This document shows, in pieces, positions 1,945-63,560 of a DNA stretch of 64,000 nucleotides. Numbering within the stretch: the first letter of the stretch is position 1; every line of letters starts with the position of its first letter. The position numbers were made by a program, and so were the translations under genes. This stretch comes from Pseudomonas sp. ML2-2023-3. GTDB taxonomy: Bacteria > Pseudomonadota > Gammaproteobacteria > Pseudomonadales > Pseudomonadaceae. The notes below the pieces were generated by a model. That model did no database searches, was not told where the DNA came from, and was given only the letters and a program-made list of their open reading frames with translations. The DNA is taken from NCBI RefSeq assembly GCF_037055275.1, contig NZ_CP146343.1:1770501-1834500 (forward strand). Reading direction: 5' to 3'.

Positions 1945-3269
1945 CAGTGCGCGAGCCCGTATTTTTTGACTTTATCGAAGAGGGTGGTCTTGGCCATGCC
2001 CAGTTCCTGGCTGGCCTGGGTCAGGTTGCCGCCGCTGCGCTGCAAGGCGTCACTGAGCAGGTTGCGCTCGAACGCCTCGACTGCCTCGGAAAAGCCCAGC
2101 CCCTGCGCCGCGTTGCTCCCGGATTTTTTGAAGGCAGGCAGACCCAGGGCGAAACGCTCGGCCACGTTGCGCAGTTCACGTACGTTGCCCGGCCAGTCAT
2201 GGCTCATGAGGCTGGACACGGTCTGGTTGTCCAGTTCAGGGGCGGCACGATCAAAACGCAGGGATGATTGCTGCAGGAAATATTCGAACAACTGCAGGAT
2301 GTCTTCGCGGCGTTCGCGCAAGGGCGGCAGTTCAAGTGTCACCACGTTCAGGCGGTAGTACAGGTCGCTGCGAAACTGGCTGGCCTTGCTCAGTTGATCA
2401 AGGTCGGACTTGGTGGCCGCGATGACCCGGCAATCAACGTCGATGCTCTGGTTGGAACCCAGGCGCTCCAGGGTGCGCTCCTGCAATACCCGCAGCAGTT
2501 TTATTTGCAGGTTGATCGGCATGCTCTCGACTTCGTCCAGAAACAGCGTGCCGCCATGGGCGTGTTCGATTTTACCGATGCGGCGTTTGCCAGCACCGGT
2601 GAAGGCGTTGGCTTCGTGGCCGAAAATCTCGCTTTCAAACAGGTTTTCCGGCAAGCCACCGCAGTTGAGGGCCACAAACTGCTGGGGATGGCGCCGGCTG
2701 AAGTCGTGCAGGCATCGGGCGACCAGCTCTTTGCCTGTGCCTGTCTCGCCTTCAATCAACACGTTCGCAGAGGTATCGGCGACGTTTGCGATCAATTCTC
2801 GCAAGTGCTGCATGGCCGGGGAACGCCCGATGATTCGCCCCTCGAGCGAGTCGCGTTCTGCCAACTGGCGACGCAGTGACCAGACCTCTCGGGCCAGGCT
2901 GCGTTGTTCCAGCGCACGGCGGGCCACATCCACCAGGCGCTCCGGGGAAAAGGGTTTTTCCATAAAGTCATAGGCGCCGTCACGCATGGCCCCCACCGCC
3001 ATGGAAATATCGCCATGCCCGGTGATCAGCACCACCGGCAGGCTGCGGTCGCGGGCCTTGAGGCGCTTGAGCAACTCCAGGCCATCGATTCCGGGCAGGC
3101 GAATGTCACTGATGACGATGCCCGGGAAATTGTCGCCCACCAACGCCAGTGCCTGTTCGGCACTGCTTACGCCTTCGCTGCGAATGTCTTCAAGTGCCAG
3201 CGCCTGCTGGCATCCGAGCAGGACATGGGGGTCGTCTTCAACAATCAGGACGGTCAGGTCGTTATTCAT
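1944..3269 (-). CDS. aauR: Sigma-54-dependent response regulator AauR (acidic amino acid utilisation)
   Basis: A 441-residue NtrC/DctD-type activator. The receiver domain carries the phospho-acceptor Asp55 (VISDIRLPG), the AAA+ domain has Walker A GETGTGK at 174-180 and Walker B GTLFLDEVE, and the C-terminus has a Fis-type helix-turn-helix (TQASQELGMAKTTLF). The sigma-54 contact loop reads NAFTGA instead of GAFTGA. It overlaps aauS by four bases. Its identity as AauR rests on position next to aatJQMP, as in P. putida, and on matching palindromes upstream of aatJ. It is expected to activate uptake and use of glutamate and aspartate. Confidence 0.88.
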   Translation of the reverse strand: MNNDLTVLIVEDDPHVLLGCQQALALEDIRSEGVSSAEQALALVGDNFPGIVISDIRLPGIDGLELLKRLKARDRSLPVVLITGHGDISMAVGAMRDGAYDFMEKPFSPERLVDVARRALEQRSLAREVWSLRRQLAERDSLEGRIIGRSPAMQHLRELIANVADTSANVLIEGETGTGKELVARCLHDFSRRHPQQFVALNCGGLPENLFESEIFGHEANAFTGAGKRRIGKIEHAHGGTLFLDEVESMPINLQIKLLRVLQERTLERLGSNQSIDVDCRVIAATKSDLDQLSKASQFRSDLYYRLNVVTLELPPLRERREDILQLFEYFLQQSSLRFDRAAPELDNQTVSSLMSHDWPGNVRELRNVAERFALGLPAFKKSGSNAAQGLGFSEAVEAFERNLLSDALQRSGGNLTQASQELGMAKTTLFDKVKKYGLAH

Positions 3270-5173
3270 AGGGGCTCGGTCCTGGCGGGTTGCACCAGCG
3301 GTAAAAGAAGGACAAATGCGACACCACCACTGGCCGGGAACTCGACGCTGAGGCTTCCACCAGCGGCGGCTGCCAGGCTGGCTGACAGGGTCAAGCCCAG
3401 GCCCAGGCCCTGTTCGCCGGGTTTGGTGGTGAAGAACGGTTCGAAGAGATGCTTGCGGGCTTCGGGGTCGATGCCGGGGCCGTTATCGCGCACCAGCAGG
3501 CGGTATTTGCTTTCGCTGACCTCGCCCTCCAGCCAAAGCTCTGGCGGTGTTGACTGGCCCTGCATGGCGTCCAGCGCGTTGCCGATCAGGTTGACCAGGA
3601 TTTGTTCCAGTCGGGTCTGATCAATCTTGAGCGCTACATCGCCGAGTGCTCGATGAAGTTGCACCCCGGACTCCTCCATGCGGCTGGCGAGCAATTGCAG
3701 GGCCGCATCGACGGCTTTGCCCAGGCTGGCCTGGCCCTGATCATCTCCACGGCGGGCAAACGAGCGCAGGTTGGCGGTGATGCGGCCCATGCGGTCGACC
3801 AGGTTGTTGATGGTACTGAGATTGTCGGCGGCGACCTTGAGGTCTCCGCGCTCAAGAAAACGCACGGTATTGCCCGACAGGGTGCGCAATGCGGCCAAGG
3901 GTTGATTCAGTTCATGGGCAATGCTGGTGGACATCTGCCCGATGGCGGCCAGTTTGCCCGCCTGTACCAGTTCATCCTGGGCACGGCGCAAGGTGTCTTC
4001 AGCCTGGCGTCGTTCACGGATCTGGCCTTTGAGTCGTTCGTTACTGGCCCGCAAGTGAGTGGTGCGCTCGGTGATCTTGCGCTCCAGCTGATTGTTGGCT
4101 TCTTGCAGGGCTTCGCGTGCCGCCAGCCGGGTGGCGATCACTTTGCGCCGTTCATTCCAGGCAATCAGCAGAAAGGCCAGCAAGGCAAATGCAACGGCGA
4201 CCAGCGTCCCCTGATTCGCCGCTTCACGGCGCAGGTCCTGCAGTGGCGTGAGCAGGGTGATGTCCCAGGGTGTGTCATTGAGCTTGCGGGTTTGCGCCAG
4301 ATAGCTGACTTCCTGCTGGTCGGTAACGATCTGGTTGTTATTGGCAAAGGTGACTTTTTCTACGCCGTCGGCCAGGTTTTCCCGTTCCAGCGGTACGAGT
4401 TCATTAAGCGGCCACCAGTAGTATTGAAGGCTGCGTGCCAGTCGCTCTTTGGTTTCGGCGCTGAGCGGGCGGATTGACTTGAGGCGTCTGGTGGGATCGC
4501 TGGACAGGATGATGATGCCGTTCTCGTCGCTCACATAGGCTTCGAGGCGAGCGCGCTGCCAGCGTTCTTCAAGGGCTTCGAGCCGGACCTTGATCACCGC
4601 TACGCCAATGATCTTGCCTTGTTCTTCGAGGCCGTGAGCCAGGTAATAGCCCGGTTCACCCGACGTGCTGCCGATCCCGTAGAAGCGCCCCGGTTGACCG
4701 CGCACGGCGTCCTGGAAGTAGGCGCGAAATGACAGGTCCTCACCCAGGTAGCTGTCGGTATCTCGCCAGTTGCTGGTGGCCATCACGCGGCCAGTGGGGT
4801 CGAGCACATAAATGGCCCGGCTGCGGCTGCGACGGTTAAGGCCTTCCAGATACTGGTTGACGGTGACCCGGTTCTGCACGCTTGGGTCGGCCAGCAACCT
4901 GGAAACACTGGACTCCAGTTCCAGCAGGCTGGGCAGGTAAGTGTATTTGCCCAGTTCGCTTTCGACGGTACGGGCGTGGAGTTCGAGCTGGCGTTCGCCG
5001 GTTTCGCTCAGGGTGCGAATACCGAAGTGTTCACTGATGCGATAGCCCGCGTAGCCCAGGCCGATCGTCAACAGGATGATCAGCAGAGGTAGCAGGAAGT
5101 GGCGCAGTAGACGAGGTTTCACGGCAAGTGAGGGCGGAGCACCGCGGTAAAGAGTGGGGTCGCATTTCATCAC
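3266..5173 (-). CDS. aauS: Sensor histidine kinase AauS
   Basis: A 635-residue membrane kinase. Helix 1 (about 26-44) and helix 2 (about 322-338) enclose a periplasmic sensor of roughly 275 residues, consistent with a double-Cache/PAS-like ligand domain as in DctB. A coiled-coil stretch follows, then HisKA with the phospho-acceptor His420 in SIAHELNQPL, and a HATPase domain with N-box NLIGNALDA and G-box GLGLGL. The gene overlaps aauR (ATGA). Known role of the family: sensing external acidic amino acids and phosphorylating AauR. ATG at 5170 is an equally possible start, one codon later. Confidence 0.88.
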   Translation of the reverse strand: MMKCDPTLYRGAPPSLAVKPRLLRHFLLPLLIILLTIGLGYAGYRISEHFGIRTLSETGERQLELHARTVESELGKYTYLPSLLELESSVSRLLADPSVQNRVTVNQYLEGLNRRSRSRAIYVLDPTGRVMATSNWRDTDSYLGEDLSFRAYFQDAVRGQPGRFYGIGSTSGEPGYYLAHGLEEQGKIIGVAVIKVRLEALEERWQRARLEAYVSDENGIIILSSDPTRRLKSIRPLSAETKERLARSLQYYWWPLNELVPLERENLADGVEKVTFANNNQIVTDQQEVSYLAQTRKLNDTPWDITLLTPLQDLRREAANQGTLVAVAFALLAFLLIAWNERRKVIATRLAAREALQEANNQLERKITERTTHLRASNERLKGQIRERRQAEDTLRRAQDELVQAGKLAAIGQMSTSIAHELNQPLAALRTLSGNTVRFLERGDLKVAADNLSTINNLVDRMGRITANLRSFARRGDDQGQASLGKAVDAALQLLASRMEESGVQLHRALGDVALKIDQTRLEQILVNLIGNALDAMQGQSTPPELWLEGEVSESKYRLLVRDNGPGIDPEARKHLFEPFFTTKPGEQGLGLGLTLSASLAAAAGGSLSVEFPASGGVAFVLLLPLVQPARTEPL

Positions 5174-59332: not shown

Positions 59333-59932
59333 TCAACCCACGATGTAGGTTTGCCCGGTTTGCAGGCCTTCGACACTTTTGGCGTAGGCCAGAGCCACGT
59401 CGGCGCCTGCCACCGGCTTGAAACCGCGGAAGTACGGCGCGTACTTGCCCATCGCCTCTTCCAGTACCGTAGGGCTCACCGAGTTAACCCGCAGCCCCCG
59501 TGGCAGCTCGATGGCAGCCGCTTTTACAAAGCCGTCGAGTGCTGCGTTGACCAGTGCCGCCGAACTGCCCGTGCGAATCGGTTCGCGATTGATGACACCG
59601 CTGGTGAAGGTGAACGAGGCGCCATCGTTGGCAAACTCGCGACCAATCAGCAGCAGATTGACTTGCCCCATCAACTTGTCCTGCAGGCCCAGGGCGAAGT
59701 CACTTTCGCTCATGTCTTCCAGTGCGGCGAACTTGACGTTGCCAGCGGCACAGACCAGCGCGTCGAAGCGTCCGGTCTGTTCGAACAGGTTGCGAATCGA
59801 TGAACAGTCGCTGATATCGACCTGAAAATCGCCGCTATTGCGGCCAATACGCACGATCTCGTGGCGCGACGACAGCTCGCGATCAATGGCTGAACCAATG
59901 GTGCCGTTAGCGCCGATCAACAGGATTTTCAT
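59333..59932 (-). CDS. Short-chain dehydrogenase-like protein lacking the YxxxK pair
   Basis: A 199-residue Rossmann-fold protein with the cofactor motif GANGTIGSAI and the central CAAGNV. The usual catalytic stretch YxxxK is replaced: the aligned segment reads SSAALVNAALDGFVKAA, with Ala and Asn where Tyr and Lys are expected. It resembles a known subgroup of short SDR-like proteins. It is divergent from a LysR-type gene 105 bp away, which probably controls it. Confidence 0.82.
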   Translation of the reverse strand: MKILLIGANGTIGSAIDRELSSRHEIVRIGRNSGDFQVDISDCSSIRNLFEQTGRFDALVCAAGNVKFAALEDMSESDFALGLQDKLMGQVNLLLIGREFANDGASFTFTSGVINREPIRTGSSAALVNAALDGFVKAAAIELPRGLRVNSVSPTVLEEAMGKYAPYFRGFKPVAGADVALAYAKSVEGLQTGQTYIVG

Positions 59933-60036
59933 GGGGTGTTCCTTGCAGGAAGAGGTGAGTGCTTAGTCTAGTGGTGGTTTTTTACCGGGATAAGCGCACT
60001 AATAGGCAACCTTTGGTTTTCATATGGAAACAATCC

Positions 60037-60945
60037 ATGAGCGAAATGGATGACTTGGCGGCGTTCGCGGTGTTGATCGACGCGGGGAGTTTTACCTTGG
60101 CCGCCCAGCAGCTGGGTTGCAGCAAAGGGCAATTGTCCAAACGCATCAGCCTCTTGGAGGCTCAGTTTGCGGTGGTGTTGCTGCACCGCACCACACGGCG
60201 TTTGAGCCTGACGGCTGCTGGCGCAGCGTTACTGCCCCAGGCCCGGGCATTGGTCGTGCAAGTGGAGCGGGCGCGTCAGGCATTAGCCCGACTCAAGGAC
60301 GATATGGTAGGCCCGGTGCGTATGACCGTGCCCGTATCCTTGGGCGAAACATTTTTTGATTCGCTGCTGATGGAATTTTCCCGCGAATACCCCCAGGTGC
60401 AGATCGAGCTGGAACTCAACAACAGCTACCGCGACATGGCACGGGAGGGCTTCGATCTGGCGATCCGTTCTCAGGTCGCCAATAACGAGCGACTGGTGGC
60501 AAAACTGGTGCTCAACTGGCAGGAGATCACCTGTGCGAGCCCGGCCTACCTTGAGCAATACGGCGAGCCAGTCACCCCGCAGCAACTGGTCGAGCACCGT
60601 TGCCTGCTCAACAGTCACTACAGCGGCCGCGAAGAGTGGCAGTACCACCTCCAGCACGAACTGCACCGTGTGCGGGTCTCGGGGCCGTTTGCCAGCAATC
60701 ACTACAGCTTGCTGAAAAAAGCCGCGGTGATCGGTGCCGGTATCGCCCGCCTGCCTTCATACATGCTCAATGCCGAACTGGCCGATGGACGATTGCGCGC
60801 GTTGCTGCGTGACTATCAGACACGCAGTAACCCCATGTACCTGGTTCACCCCTATCAGGGCGGTTTGCCGAAACGCACGCAGGTTTTGGCGGATTACCTT
60901 GCAGGCTGGTTCCGGCGCAGCGGTGAGGCCATTGACGCGCGGTAA
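60037..60945 (+). CDS. LysR-family transcriptional regulator
   Basis: A 302-residue regulator. The winged helix contains GSFTLAAQQLGCSKGQLSKRISLLE, and the periplasmic-binding-like effector domain follows from about residue 90. Divergent orientation to the SDR-like gene is the classic LysR arrangement and suggests that this is its target. The last 52 bases overlap the 3' end of the DoxX gene on the other strand. ATG at 60037 gives MSEMDDLAAFAVLIDAGSF; the frame is open 26 codons earlier. Confidence 0.9.
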   Translation: MSEMDDLAAFAVLIDAGSFTLAAQQLGCSKGQLSKRISLLEAQFAVVLLHRTTRRLSLTAAGAALLPQARALVVQVERARQALARLKDDMVGPVRMTVPVSLGETFFDSLLMEFSREYPQVQIELELNNSYRDMAREGFDLAIRSQVANNERLVAKLVLNWQEITCASPAYLEQYGEPVTPQQLVEHRCLLNSHYSGREEWQYHLQHELHRVRVSGPFASNHYSLLKKAAVIGAGIARLPSYMLNAELADGRLRALLRDYQTRSNPMYLVHPYQGGLPKRTQVLADYLAGWFRRSGEAIDAR

Positions 60946-61433
60946 CGAAAACGTCTGGCGATCAGGTGATCAATCGACAACGCACCGGGGCCTCTGGCCA
61001 TCAGGTACAACAGAATCGCGATCCATGTCCCATGAGTGGGGTAGGCGTCCGGGTACACGAATAACTGAATGGTCAGCGTCATCCCCAGCAGTGCCAGTGC
61101 CGAAAAACGGGTGGCAAGCCCCAGCAGGATCAGCAGCGGGAAGACGTGTTCACTGAAAGCTGCTGCGTACGCGGCAATGTCCGGGGGCAGCAGCGGGAGT
61201 TTGTATTCCGTACTGAACAAGTACACCGCAGAGTCGGCCAAGTGTGGGGCATTGAGTTCAAAGGTGCCGTTCACCAGGTCGATCGCCAGGCCCTCGACTT
61301 TGGTCTGGCCGGACTTCCAGAACACCGCAGCGATAGAAAACCGTGCGACAAAGGCTATCAGCGTGTGGGGGATACGTTGCATCAGTCCGATTAAACGGCG
61401 TATCTGGCATGTGGGCGTTGCATGGGTGTTCAT
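60894..61433 (-). CDS. DoxX-family membrane protein (bufferin operon, BufD-like)
   Basis: A 179-residue protein with about four membrane helices (LIAFVARFSIAAVFWKSGQTKVEG; HVFPLLILLGLATRFSALALLGM). DoxX proteins often accompany redox or thiol pathways. The ATG overlaps the stop of the DUF2063 gene by four bases (ATGA), so it is the last gene of the four-gene operon. Its 3' end overlaps the LysR gene by 52 bases on the opposite strand. Confidence 0.85.
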   Translation of the reverse strand: MNTHATPTCQIRRLIGLMQRIPHTLIAFVARFSIAAVFWKSGQTKVEGLAIDLVNGTFELNAPHLADSAVYLFSTEYKLPLLPPDIAAYAAAFSEHVFPLLILLGLATRFSALALLGMTLTIQLFVYPDAYPTHGTWIAILLYLMARGPGALSIDHLIARRFRYRASMASPLRRNQPAR

Positions 61434-62203
61434 GGCGAAACCTCTGCGGTGGGGTGTAGGCCGGTGATGGCGTCATGGGTGATCAGCAGCGCCAGGGCCT
61501 GGCCCAGATCAAAATCAGGGGCGGCTTCCAGAGCCTGGCAAGCGGCCAGTTCCAGGGGCCGGCCTTCCTTGAGCCCGTCCACGAACGCTGCACACCCGCA
61601 GCCGACCGCGAACACTTCCACCCGTAATCCGTTGCGCAGCACCACGGCGCTTTGTGGCTGATGCGGGTCTAGGCCCTGAATTTGGCCCTGGTGTTGATGT
61701 GCGGTCCATAGAGCGGCTATGGCGTAGGGTGAATTCAGGCTTGCGACGCCGGGATGCAGTTGCAGGCACAACTGGCCAAGCCTGCCGGGGTTGTTGAGCG
61801 CGCGGATCAATAAGTGCGGGTCCACTGCGCAGGCGTCTGCGGCGTGAAAGGCCTGGACGCACAAACGTTCCAATCGTGCGACATCCGCCAGGTAAGGCAC
61901 GCTGCTGGCAGGTGCGAAACCCTTGACAAAATCTGCGAACTGGACGCCATAGGTGCTCATTACAGGGCTTTTGGGCGGGAAATCTTGAATAAAAGCCCGC
62001 GCCATTGCCTGAAAGAAAACGTCGCCAACCAGCTGCGAAACGACCGGGTAGCTCGTGGCCAGTGCGTTGATCAGGCCACTGTGGACATTGTTGCGATAAA
62101 CCGCAAAACGACGCTCAATGTCGCCGTTATGGCAGGAAATACCTTGCGGGTAAGGCGTATCAGGATCGAGCAGCGCTGCGCTGAAAGCCTCTTGCATATT
62201 CAT
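61430..62203 (-). CDS. DUF2063-family protein (BufC-like partner)
   Basis: A 257-residue protein of the DUF2063 family, databases' putative DNA-binding fold. The N-terminus [14 protein letters not shown] leads to [23 protein letters not shown], the family signature; the second half is a separate domain. In bufferin/TglI-type pathways the DUF2063 protein partners the DUF692 enzyme, presenting the precursor peptide. ATG at 62203 overlaps the upstream stop (ATGA), which fixes the start although the frame is open 48 codons earlier. Confidence 0.86.
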
Positions 62204-63081
62204 GGTTGCACCTGTGTGCTGCTCAGGTAGTGCTCGGCAAGTCGTGCTTCCTTGACGAGTTCGGTGAGTGCAGGCAGATGGTTGTCGCGCTCGATCAGGG
62301 TGGCCATTGGGCCCGTTCGCTTCAGTGCTTGTCGGTACAGCGTCCACACGGCTTGATCGACGGGTGATCCGTGGTTGTCGATAAGCAGTCGCTCGCCAAG
62401 GCTGTCGGACTCTTCGGCAAAACCTGCCAGATGAATCTCTCCAACAGCCCGCAGCGGCAAAGCATCGAGGTAGGCCAGGGGATTACGGGCGTGGTTGATG
62501 CAGGACACGTACAGGTTGTTAACGTCCAGTAATAGGCCACAACCACTGCGGGTGATGACTTCGTGGATGAAGTCGGCCTCGTCGAAATGGGCCTCGTCGA
62601 ACTCAATATAGGTTGCGGGGTTTTCCAGCAGGATCTGGCGCTGCAACAGGTTCTGGACCTGATCAATGTGCGCGCATACCCGCGTCAGCGTGGCGGTGTC
62701 ATAACGCAAAGGCAGCAGGTCGTTCAAAAAATACGGCCCGTGGGAAGACCATGCCAGATGTTCGGAAAACATCTGGGGCCGGTAGCGGTCGAGCAATGTG
62801 CTCAAGCGTTGCAAATGTTCGGGATTGAGCGGGCTTTGGCCCCCGATCGACAGACCGACGCCGTGAATCGACAGGGGATACTGATCGCAAATCAGGCTCA
62901 GGTAGTGGTGGAACGGGCCTCCGGCAACCATGTAGTTTTCGGCGTGTACTTCAAAGAAGCCGACGTCAGGCCGGGTGGCGAGTACATCCTGGAAATGTTC
63001 GGCCTTGAGCCCCAGCCCCGCACGCGGCGGGAGCAGGGGCGCACGAGGCGCGATGAGCGAAGCAAGCGGGCTGTGCATCAT
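62200..63081 (-). CDS. DUF692 multinuclear iron enzyme (BufB-like)
   Basis: A 293-residue TIM-barrel of the MbnB/TglH/ChrH family (DUF692). The iron-binding motifs are visible in order: [49 protein letters not shown] and LIERDNH. Members use two or three iron ions to modify cysteines of a peptide precursor with oxygen. The precursor gene is 18 bp upstream and the DUF2063 partner overlaps downstream. Start is uncertain: ATG at 63081 or 63078, or GTG at 63087. Confidence 0.88.
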
Positions 63082-63099
63082 CAGCACTCAGTGTGCGAA

Positions 63100-63402
63100 T
63101 CAGGATTTGGCTTTGTAGGCAGCCATTTGGCCAAAGCCGGTAGGCGAGGTGCTGCTGGAGGTTGTTTCGCAGGTGCCTTTTGGTACGAGCTTCCAGGCAT
63201 TGGCCTGATTGTCTACCTTGGCGGTTCCTGCACAGGTAGTGCCTGCCCCTGCGGCGCAATCGTTATGGCCTTTCATGGCAACCCCGAAGCACTTCTCCAT
63301 ATCGCCAGCAGCCTGAGCGGGCAGGGCGGCGATGCTCAGGGCGGAACCCAGAGCAAGTGTCAGTGCAGCGGCGGACAGGGTGCGGGTAGTTTTGCTGTTC
63401 AT
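63100..63402 (-). CDS. DUF2282 exported peptide, bufferin-type RiPP precursor (BufA1-like)
   Basis: A 100-residue precursor. An N-terminal signal peptide of about 31 residues ends LPAQAAG, followed by a core with four Cys: [24 protein letters not shown] and KGTCETT. This is the DUF2282 pattern of bufferins, whose cysteines are oxidised by the DUF692 enzyme and which bind copper in the periplasm. It is the first gene of the operon with bufB-, bufC- and doxX-like genes. ATG at 63402 gives a normal signal peptide, preceded by GGAGAA; the frame is open 15 codons earlier. Confidence 0.86.
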
Positions 63403-63560
63403 GGTGATTCTCCAGATCCCGGTAGCGATTGCTGCCGGCTTACTCAACTAGAGAAACGAGGGGGGCAGTTATTACAACGCACCTGAATTATTTTTTGGTT
63501 TTAACTGCAACCTCCCCCGTTCCTACGGCAGCTGCTACAGAAAGCCCGGTAGGGGGCAAT

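Follow-up and report, generated by a model that had tools for sequence, protein, structure and literature searches.

A stretch of 64,000 nucleotides of Pseudomonas sp. ML2-2023-3 (contig NZ_CP146343.1, positions 1,770,501 to 1,834,500; hereafter the window) contains four consecutive genes, bufA, bufB, bufC and doxX, which we take, with good though not complete confidence, to be a Buf1 bufferin operon that likely buffers copper and is likely transcribed by an extracytoplasmic function (ECF) sigma factor whose gene lies some 2.5 Mb distant. As annotated, the operon is an ordinary Buf1 bufferin cluster, and what is new is its likely control. The operon itself is not new because a P. fluorescens homologue has already been placed in a tree (PMC5413113) and the gene list of the P. 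fluorescens Pep1 cluster, with a DUF2282 peptide, DUF692, DUF2063 and DoxX, has already been printed (PMC8719888); the likeness between Pep1 and the operon described here is one of gene lists. We found no published account of such control of Buf1 in Pseudomonas in the open-access literature searched.

The promoter upstream of bufA

Aligning 28 upstream regions brought out TGTAAC and CTCTAG as conserved islands with 17 nt between them, and the two-box promoter that they form before bufA is ECF-like. Conservation counts here and below use the best 80 loci, all from Pseudomonas, of 438 confirmed relatives. The pattern TGTAA(C/T)-N17-CTC(T/A)A(G/A) lies no more than 600 nt before bufB in every one of these loci, and TGTAAC-N17-CTCTAG in 71 of them, the chance rate estimated from single-base shuffles of the upstream regions being 8.75e-5 per locus. 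When 119 genomes of the genus were scanned for TGTAAC-N17-CTCTAGWG, 43 of them yielded a total of 64 matches, as against four for the backward pattern. Each of the 64 was inspected and all precede precursor genes (35 Buf1, 26 Buf2 and 3 methionine-rich), as classified with query peptides that came from such loci, one Met-rich match being the query itself. The family set of 148 genomes yielded 12 matches in 8 genomes (backward control, 0), all of them before Buf1, Buf2 or Met-rich genes; the two sets of matches have one site in common. Within the genome under study, TGTAAY-N17-CTCTA occurs at two sites only, upstream of bufA and inside the gene of an ECF sigma factor (backward control, 3). In the genomes searched, the only genes marked by the box pattern are those of bufferin-like and Met-rich precursors, plus that of the likely sigma, and the regulon is therefore directly testable.

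A search for MNIO genes was also made in 20 genomes (33 matches, 30 loci examined). TGTAAC was found upstream in all 8 Buf1 loci, 7 of them with CTCTAG, and TGTAAC-N17-CTC(T/A)AG in 8 of 11 Buf2 loci. All five loci that encode a precursor with EGKCG repeats and an MNIO sharing 75% identity or more with the one in genome G263 have TGTAAC-N17-GTC; two of these lie beside the gene of this ECF, two within about 4 kb of it and one far off. Both boxes together occur in none of the six EGKCG loci with a more distant MNIO (57-63%), among which L282 has an EF-hand precursor. The Buf2-type MNIO loci L259, L266 and L267, from the same genus, show no TGTAAC in the 700 nt that precede the MNIO match. Further targets in the genome under study were sought with TGTAAC-N17-STCYA and rejected, as this pattern gave four matches against nine for its backward version, none of them upstream of a convincing target.

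Candidate sigma factor and anti-sigma

The preliminary description had remarked that no sigma or anti-sigma gene adjoins the operon and that its control might therefore be different. The first point is borne out, the operon being flanked in the window by livF and a convergent LysR gene; the second can now be refined, as the genome lacks NrsF but has the ECF-like promoter and, encoded elsewhere, a candidate pair of ECF and zinc-type anti-sigma. Among 30 sigma region-2 matches in the genome, the candidate lies about 2.5 Mb from the operon, after a FabH-like gene, and its gene overlaps that of a 75-aa protein. This putative anti-sigma has the arrangement C4-X25-H30-X3-C-X2-C and matches zf-HC2 above the cut-off; with its gene adjoining that of the ECF, it carries the RpoE2-HrsE-like motif C/H-X23-26-H-X3-C-X2-C. 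To judge from gene order, the candidate may be the orthologue of PA3285. PA3285 appears as ECF293 in a published listing, where its entry is without an anti-sigma (PMC8999054). In Haemophilus influenzae, the ECF RpoE2 with its zinc-motif anti-sigma HrsE is required for the induction by hypochlorous acid (HOCl) of a DoxX/COG3767/MNIO/DUF2063 operon (PMC7907618). Both systems would thus join an ECF and a small zinc-motif anti-sigma to DoxX, periplasmic peptide, MNIO and DUF2063 targets in trans, here as predicted from sequence, although the Haemophilus precursor is of the COG3767/oxazolin kind, unlike the DUF2282 peptide of our operon (PMC7907618).

One connection between the candidate and the boxes is the copy inside its own gene. 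Thirty homologous loci were taken and 29 read (L178 was left out), and in all 29 the two-box site lies 108 nt from the end of the ECF gene, the anti-sigma start following after about 100 nt. All 29 genes use TGT for the Cys of this site and AAT for its Asn, while at their other positions TGT encodes 12 of 58 Cys and AAT 60 of 116 Asn; the Leu codon of the second box is invariably CTC, whereas neighbouring Leu codons vary. These fixed synonymous codons point to constraint at the DNA level, most simply explained by an internal promoter for the anti-sigma.

Gene neighbourhoods in other genomes also associate this kind of ECF with MNIO clusters. Outside the genus, L206 has the order bufA-bufB-bufC-doxX-ECF-zfHC2, with TGTAAC upstream of bufA, and five loci (L201, L202, L214, L215 and L218, of which L214 and L215 are from the same genus) have the order FabH-like-ECF-zfHC2-EGKCG precursor-MNIO, with TGTAAC-N17-GTCTAG or GTCCAT upstream of the EGKCG precursor. 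The ECF is present in all 8 motif-bearing genomes of the family set and in 67 of the 148 overall, and the two same-genus genomes without it hold only an EGKCG locus with a more distant MNIO (57-63%). Upstream TGTAAC was seen once among 18 ECF loci read, in L168, where TGTAAC-N17-CTCTAC lies 47 nt before the ECF start. One of the 14 longer ECF stretches without an MNIO gene, L207 (about 1982-3077, minus strand), has an ECF-zfHC2 pair and, after it, a TGTAAC box with a gene for MsrP, an arrangement that links the candidate's kind of ECF with methionine-sulphoxide repair.

Several observations weigh against this assignment. Since the ECF genes are related, the codon bias in 29 of them does not amount to 29 independent events. 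Kinship confounds the co-occurrence in 8 of 8 genomes, since 17 of 19 genomes from the same genus carry the ECF, and the co-occurrence was counted for the candidate alone. Of the 20 longer stretches read around ECF homologues, which were chosen by the analyst, no more than 6 have an MNIO gene within 7 kb; the bufferin operon of L206 lacks the second box, and 3 of the 11 Buf2 loci lack both. The strict TGTAAC pattern has no match in the genome under study because the -35 box in the window is TGTAAT. Finally, no box precedes the start of the candidate ECF gene itself, and none was found before any of the nine ECF gene starts inspected in this genome. The first of these two findings, together with the existence in the genome of further ECFs with anti-sigma genes, would suit a different scheme, in which the bufferin assignment is right but a different sigma factor reads the boxes, or another oxidant- or metal-responsive regulator binds them, the candidate ECF serving other genes. 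ECF16 sigmas share the identical -35 box, with CGAA as the -10 (PMC8315932, PMC3420878), and would also fit such a scheme. We think it rather improbable, however, as the only other copy of the boxes in the genome sits inside the candidate ECF gene, all 29 homologues read having it too, and no ECF of the genome closely resembles the NrsF-linked sigmas. The candidate ECF remains the likely reader of the bufA promoter.

The -35 sequence recognised by Caulobacter SigF, GTAACC, is close to TGTAAC, whereas its -10 is CGAA and that found here CTCTAG (PMC3511200). In Caulobacter the sigma gene is linked to that of the membrane anti-sigma NrsF; here there is a distant candidate ECF with a small zinc-type anti-sigma, and PF06532 had no match in the genome, although the Caulobacter positive control was detected. 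Control of the SigF-NrsF type was considered and rejected, the genome being without NrsF and the sigmas adjacent to NrsF in genomes of the class being only generally similar to its ECFs. The regulon of the Brucella ECF16 sigma BcrS resembles that proposed here in its TGTAAC promoter, which stands ahead of HOCl-related genes and a gene for a Met-rich peptide, and differs in its DUF1109 membrane anti-sigma and its -10, GCGAA (PMC8315932).

According to the scheme proposed here, the ECF sigma would be freed from the 75-aa anti-sigma by thiol oxidants such as hypochlorite or by thiol-binding metals such as copper. Freed sigma would then direct transcription of bufA and, through the internal site, of its own anti-sigma, and this would close a negative loop.

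The operon and its predicted product

The four minus-strand genes had been described at 60894-63402, with an 18-bp gap and two ATGA overlaps, and this is exact to the base: 18 bp separate bufA and bufB, and the overlaps join bufB to bufC (62203-62200) and bufC to doxX (61433-61430). An in-frame GTG at 63087 is an alternative start for bufB and would give 295 aa. All 80 loci keep bufA-bufB-bufC-doxX in one order and on one strand, so the arrangement is not due to chance; livF lies upstream within the flank in 75 of them and a LysR gene downstream in 77, some of the exceptions being contig ends. BufB shares 100% identity with its counterpart in Pseudomonas sp. NKUCC02_KPG and 95% with the one in P. 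psychrophila, and a family search of the genome found a single match each for the MNIO and DUF2282 families.

All four proteins match the families proposed for them above the Pfam curated cut-offs. BufB (MbnB_TglH_ChrH, E 1.2e-102) also exceeds the cut-off of the NCBIfam model MNIO_BufB (378.2 bits, cut-off 310), while falling under those of HvfB (238.5 bits, cut-off 360) and of methanobactin MbnB, TIGR04159 (39.5 bits, cut-off 325), so that it belongs to neither the oxazolin (HvfABC) nor the methanobactin class. Ten iron-ligand or base positions of VcMbnB have been named (PMC8888699). Nine fall inside the local alignment of BufB to 7dz9 and all nine are identical, in agreement with the metal motifs noted earlier; the counterpart of the tenth, H75, lines up with a His of 3bww and does not vary across 12 sequences, whose identity goes down to 35%. 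By these alignments the metal site of BufB is intact. BufC, as expected of the DUF2063-RRE partner in a Buf1 cluster, matches DUF2063 (PF09836, E 1.2e-25) and is under the cut-off of the HvfC model (47.8 bits, cut-off 142). A PDB sequence search with BufC gave no useful match; its structure model (mean predicted local distance difference test score, pLDDT, 86.4) matches TglI 8hci (E 2.7e-7) and the DUF2063 structure 3dee (E 4.1e-4). DoxX (E 1.8e-16) is likewise under the cut-off of the HvfX model (39.7 bits, cut-off 80).

BufA is a DUF2282 protein (E 1.3e-24) whose Cys38, Cys49, Cys57 and Cys78 are invariant in 20 sequences, as expected of the four-Cys peptide predicted at the outset. Its N-terminus has a hydrophobic stretch at residues 8-29 followed by AQA, a putative Sec signal peptide. 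No Buf1 model in NCBIfam matched BufA, and with 22.1 bits against the Buf2 model NF050166 (cut-off 60) it is not a BufA2; EGKCG repeats are absent from the bufA product. A PDB sequence search gave no useful match, and the structure model, with a mean pLDDT of 64.8, was left unused. Four cysteines beyond residue 20 are found in 75 of the 76 precursors that could be extracted by script from the 80 loci. The exception, L009 (P. lundensis L1802, about 4700-4981), has an in-frame loss in bufA by which some of the signal peptide is missing along with the two foremost cysteines, and nonetheless retains both promoter boxes, bufB, bufC and doxX.

The bufferin assignment proposed earlier is thus supported, at the level of sequence, by the protein families, the active site of the enzyme, the fold of its partner and the order of the genes. 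The described Caulobacter Buf1 has the same four-Cys DUF2282 precursor, MNIO, DUF2063 partner and DoxX; in Buf1 the modification falls on the central cysteines and a disulphide joins the outer pair (PMC12452194), and 5-thiooxazole has been assigned to several MNIO-PME1 products (PMC12668002). By analogy with characterised relatives, BufC would present the precursor, recognising it partly by its signal peptide, BufB with iron and O2 would oxidise Cys49 and Cys57, Cys38 and Cys78 would form a disulphide, and Sec would export the product. The predicted outcome is a peptide that would buffer periplasmic copper once the MNIO enzyme, with its DUF2063 partner, has converted both central cysteines into 5-thiooxazoles. 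Modification, export and metal binding of BufA are all deduced in this way, and what DoxX does is the least certain part of the scheme. A secreted antimicrobial, bacteriocin-like product seems very improbable: antiSMASH labels such clusters bacteriocins and Pep1 was the strongest correlate of Streptomyces scabies suppression, but the same report calls for further work (PMC8719888), the conserved block of the operon loci has no export, protease or immunity gene, and characterised Buf1 binds copper.

Methionine-rich peptides and neighbouring genes

In four genomes (G007, G089 and G096 from the same genus, G392 from another) the operon is replaced by a single gene for a Met-rich peptide, within a retained frame of flavin adenine dinucleotide (FAD) protein, lipoprotein, short-chain dehydrogenase/reductase (SDR), LysR and livF; tblastn of these stretches found no operon gene. 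The peptide has 82-86 aa, no Cys, 14-15 Met and 16-17 Lys, and its gene has the same upstream boxes; the one peptide searched had no Pfam or NCBIfam match. In a single comparison its start was identical to a BufA signal peptide at 19 of 34 positions (E 1e-7), which suggests common descent and does not prove it, because signal peptides converge.

This replacement, together with the MsrP gene of L207, could also indicate that the operon is mainly a shield against oxidants such as hypochlorite, with copper binding secondary. Sodium hypochlorite raises a DUF692 gene set for a ribosomally synthesised and post-translationally modified peptide in P. aeruginosa (PMC9023270), and the Haemophilus operon is HOCl-induced via RpoE2 (PMC7907618). 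We regard this as unlikely, though less so than the alternatives above, since Caulobacter Buf1 is reported to chelate copper and aid growth in copper excess (PMC12452194) and the Legionella GIG is copper- and gold-responsive (PMC5413113); the two roles can hold together.

A wider reading, possible but tentative, is that one Pseudomonas ECF with a zinc-type redox or metal sensor controls a scattered set of genes for exported shield peptides that can stand in for one another, with anti-sigma feedback through a promoter inside its own coding sequence. The peptide core would be swapped at one chromosomal slot, a thiooxazole bufferin occupying it in most lineages seen and an unmodified, Cys-free, Met/Lys/Asp-rich peptide, with a similar signal peptide and the same promoter, in others, and enzyme-made heterocycles and methionines would be equivalent in the periplasm. 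The proposed regulon would link copper buffering with the defence of soil and food Pseudomonas against oxidants and supply targets for an ECF group whose control has so far been described by prediction only, and the slot swap is a natural experiment on whether methionines can replace costly cysteine chemistry.

Table 1. Coordinates of the operon, its promoter and related features (window positions unless a genome or locus is named)
Feature	Position	Strand	Basis
bufA, DUF2282 precursor, 100 aa	63100..63402	-	Pfam, open reading frame call
bufB, DUF692/MNIO bufferin maturase, 293 aa from ATG at 63081	62200..63081	-	Pfam, NCBIfam, ligand alignment
bufC, DUF2063 partner protein, 257 aa	61430..62203	-	Pfam; model resembles TglI, NGO1945
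doxX, DoxX family membrane protein, 179 aa	60894..61433	-	Pfam
-35-like box TGTAAT (TGTAAC in most relatives)	63471..63476	-	Upstream alignment, motif search
-10-like box CTCTAG, 17 nt past the -35 box	63448..63453	-	Upstream alignment, motif search
Candidate ECF sigma, 203 aa	G000:C1:4353574-4354182	-	Sigma search, neighbourhood, internal boxes
Two-box copy inside ECF coding sequence	L250 3179-3151	-	Motif search; same place in L160-L189 except L178
Met/Lys/Asp-rich peptide gene in livF-LysR slot	L144 4591-4971, L145 4549-4845, L146 4842-5090, L251 2917-3171 (minus strand)		Bufferin promoter
LysR gene, convergent	59959-60945		
SDR gene, divergent from LysR	59333-59932		
Lipoprotein-like open reading frame, 223 aa	58491-59162		

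Among the neighbouring genes in the window, the lipoprotein-like reading frame matches no Pfam or NCBIfam model and is kept in 79 of the 80 loci. The LysR gene overlaps the end of doxX by 52 bp, and the LysR/SDR pair stands beside the operon in most loci.

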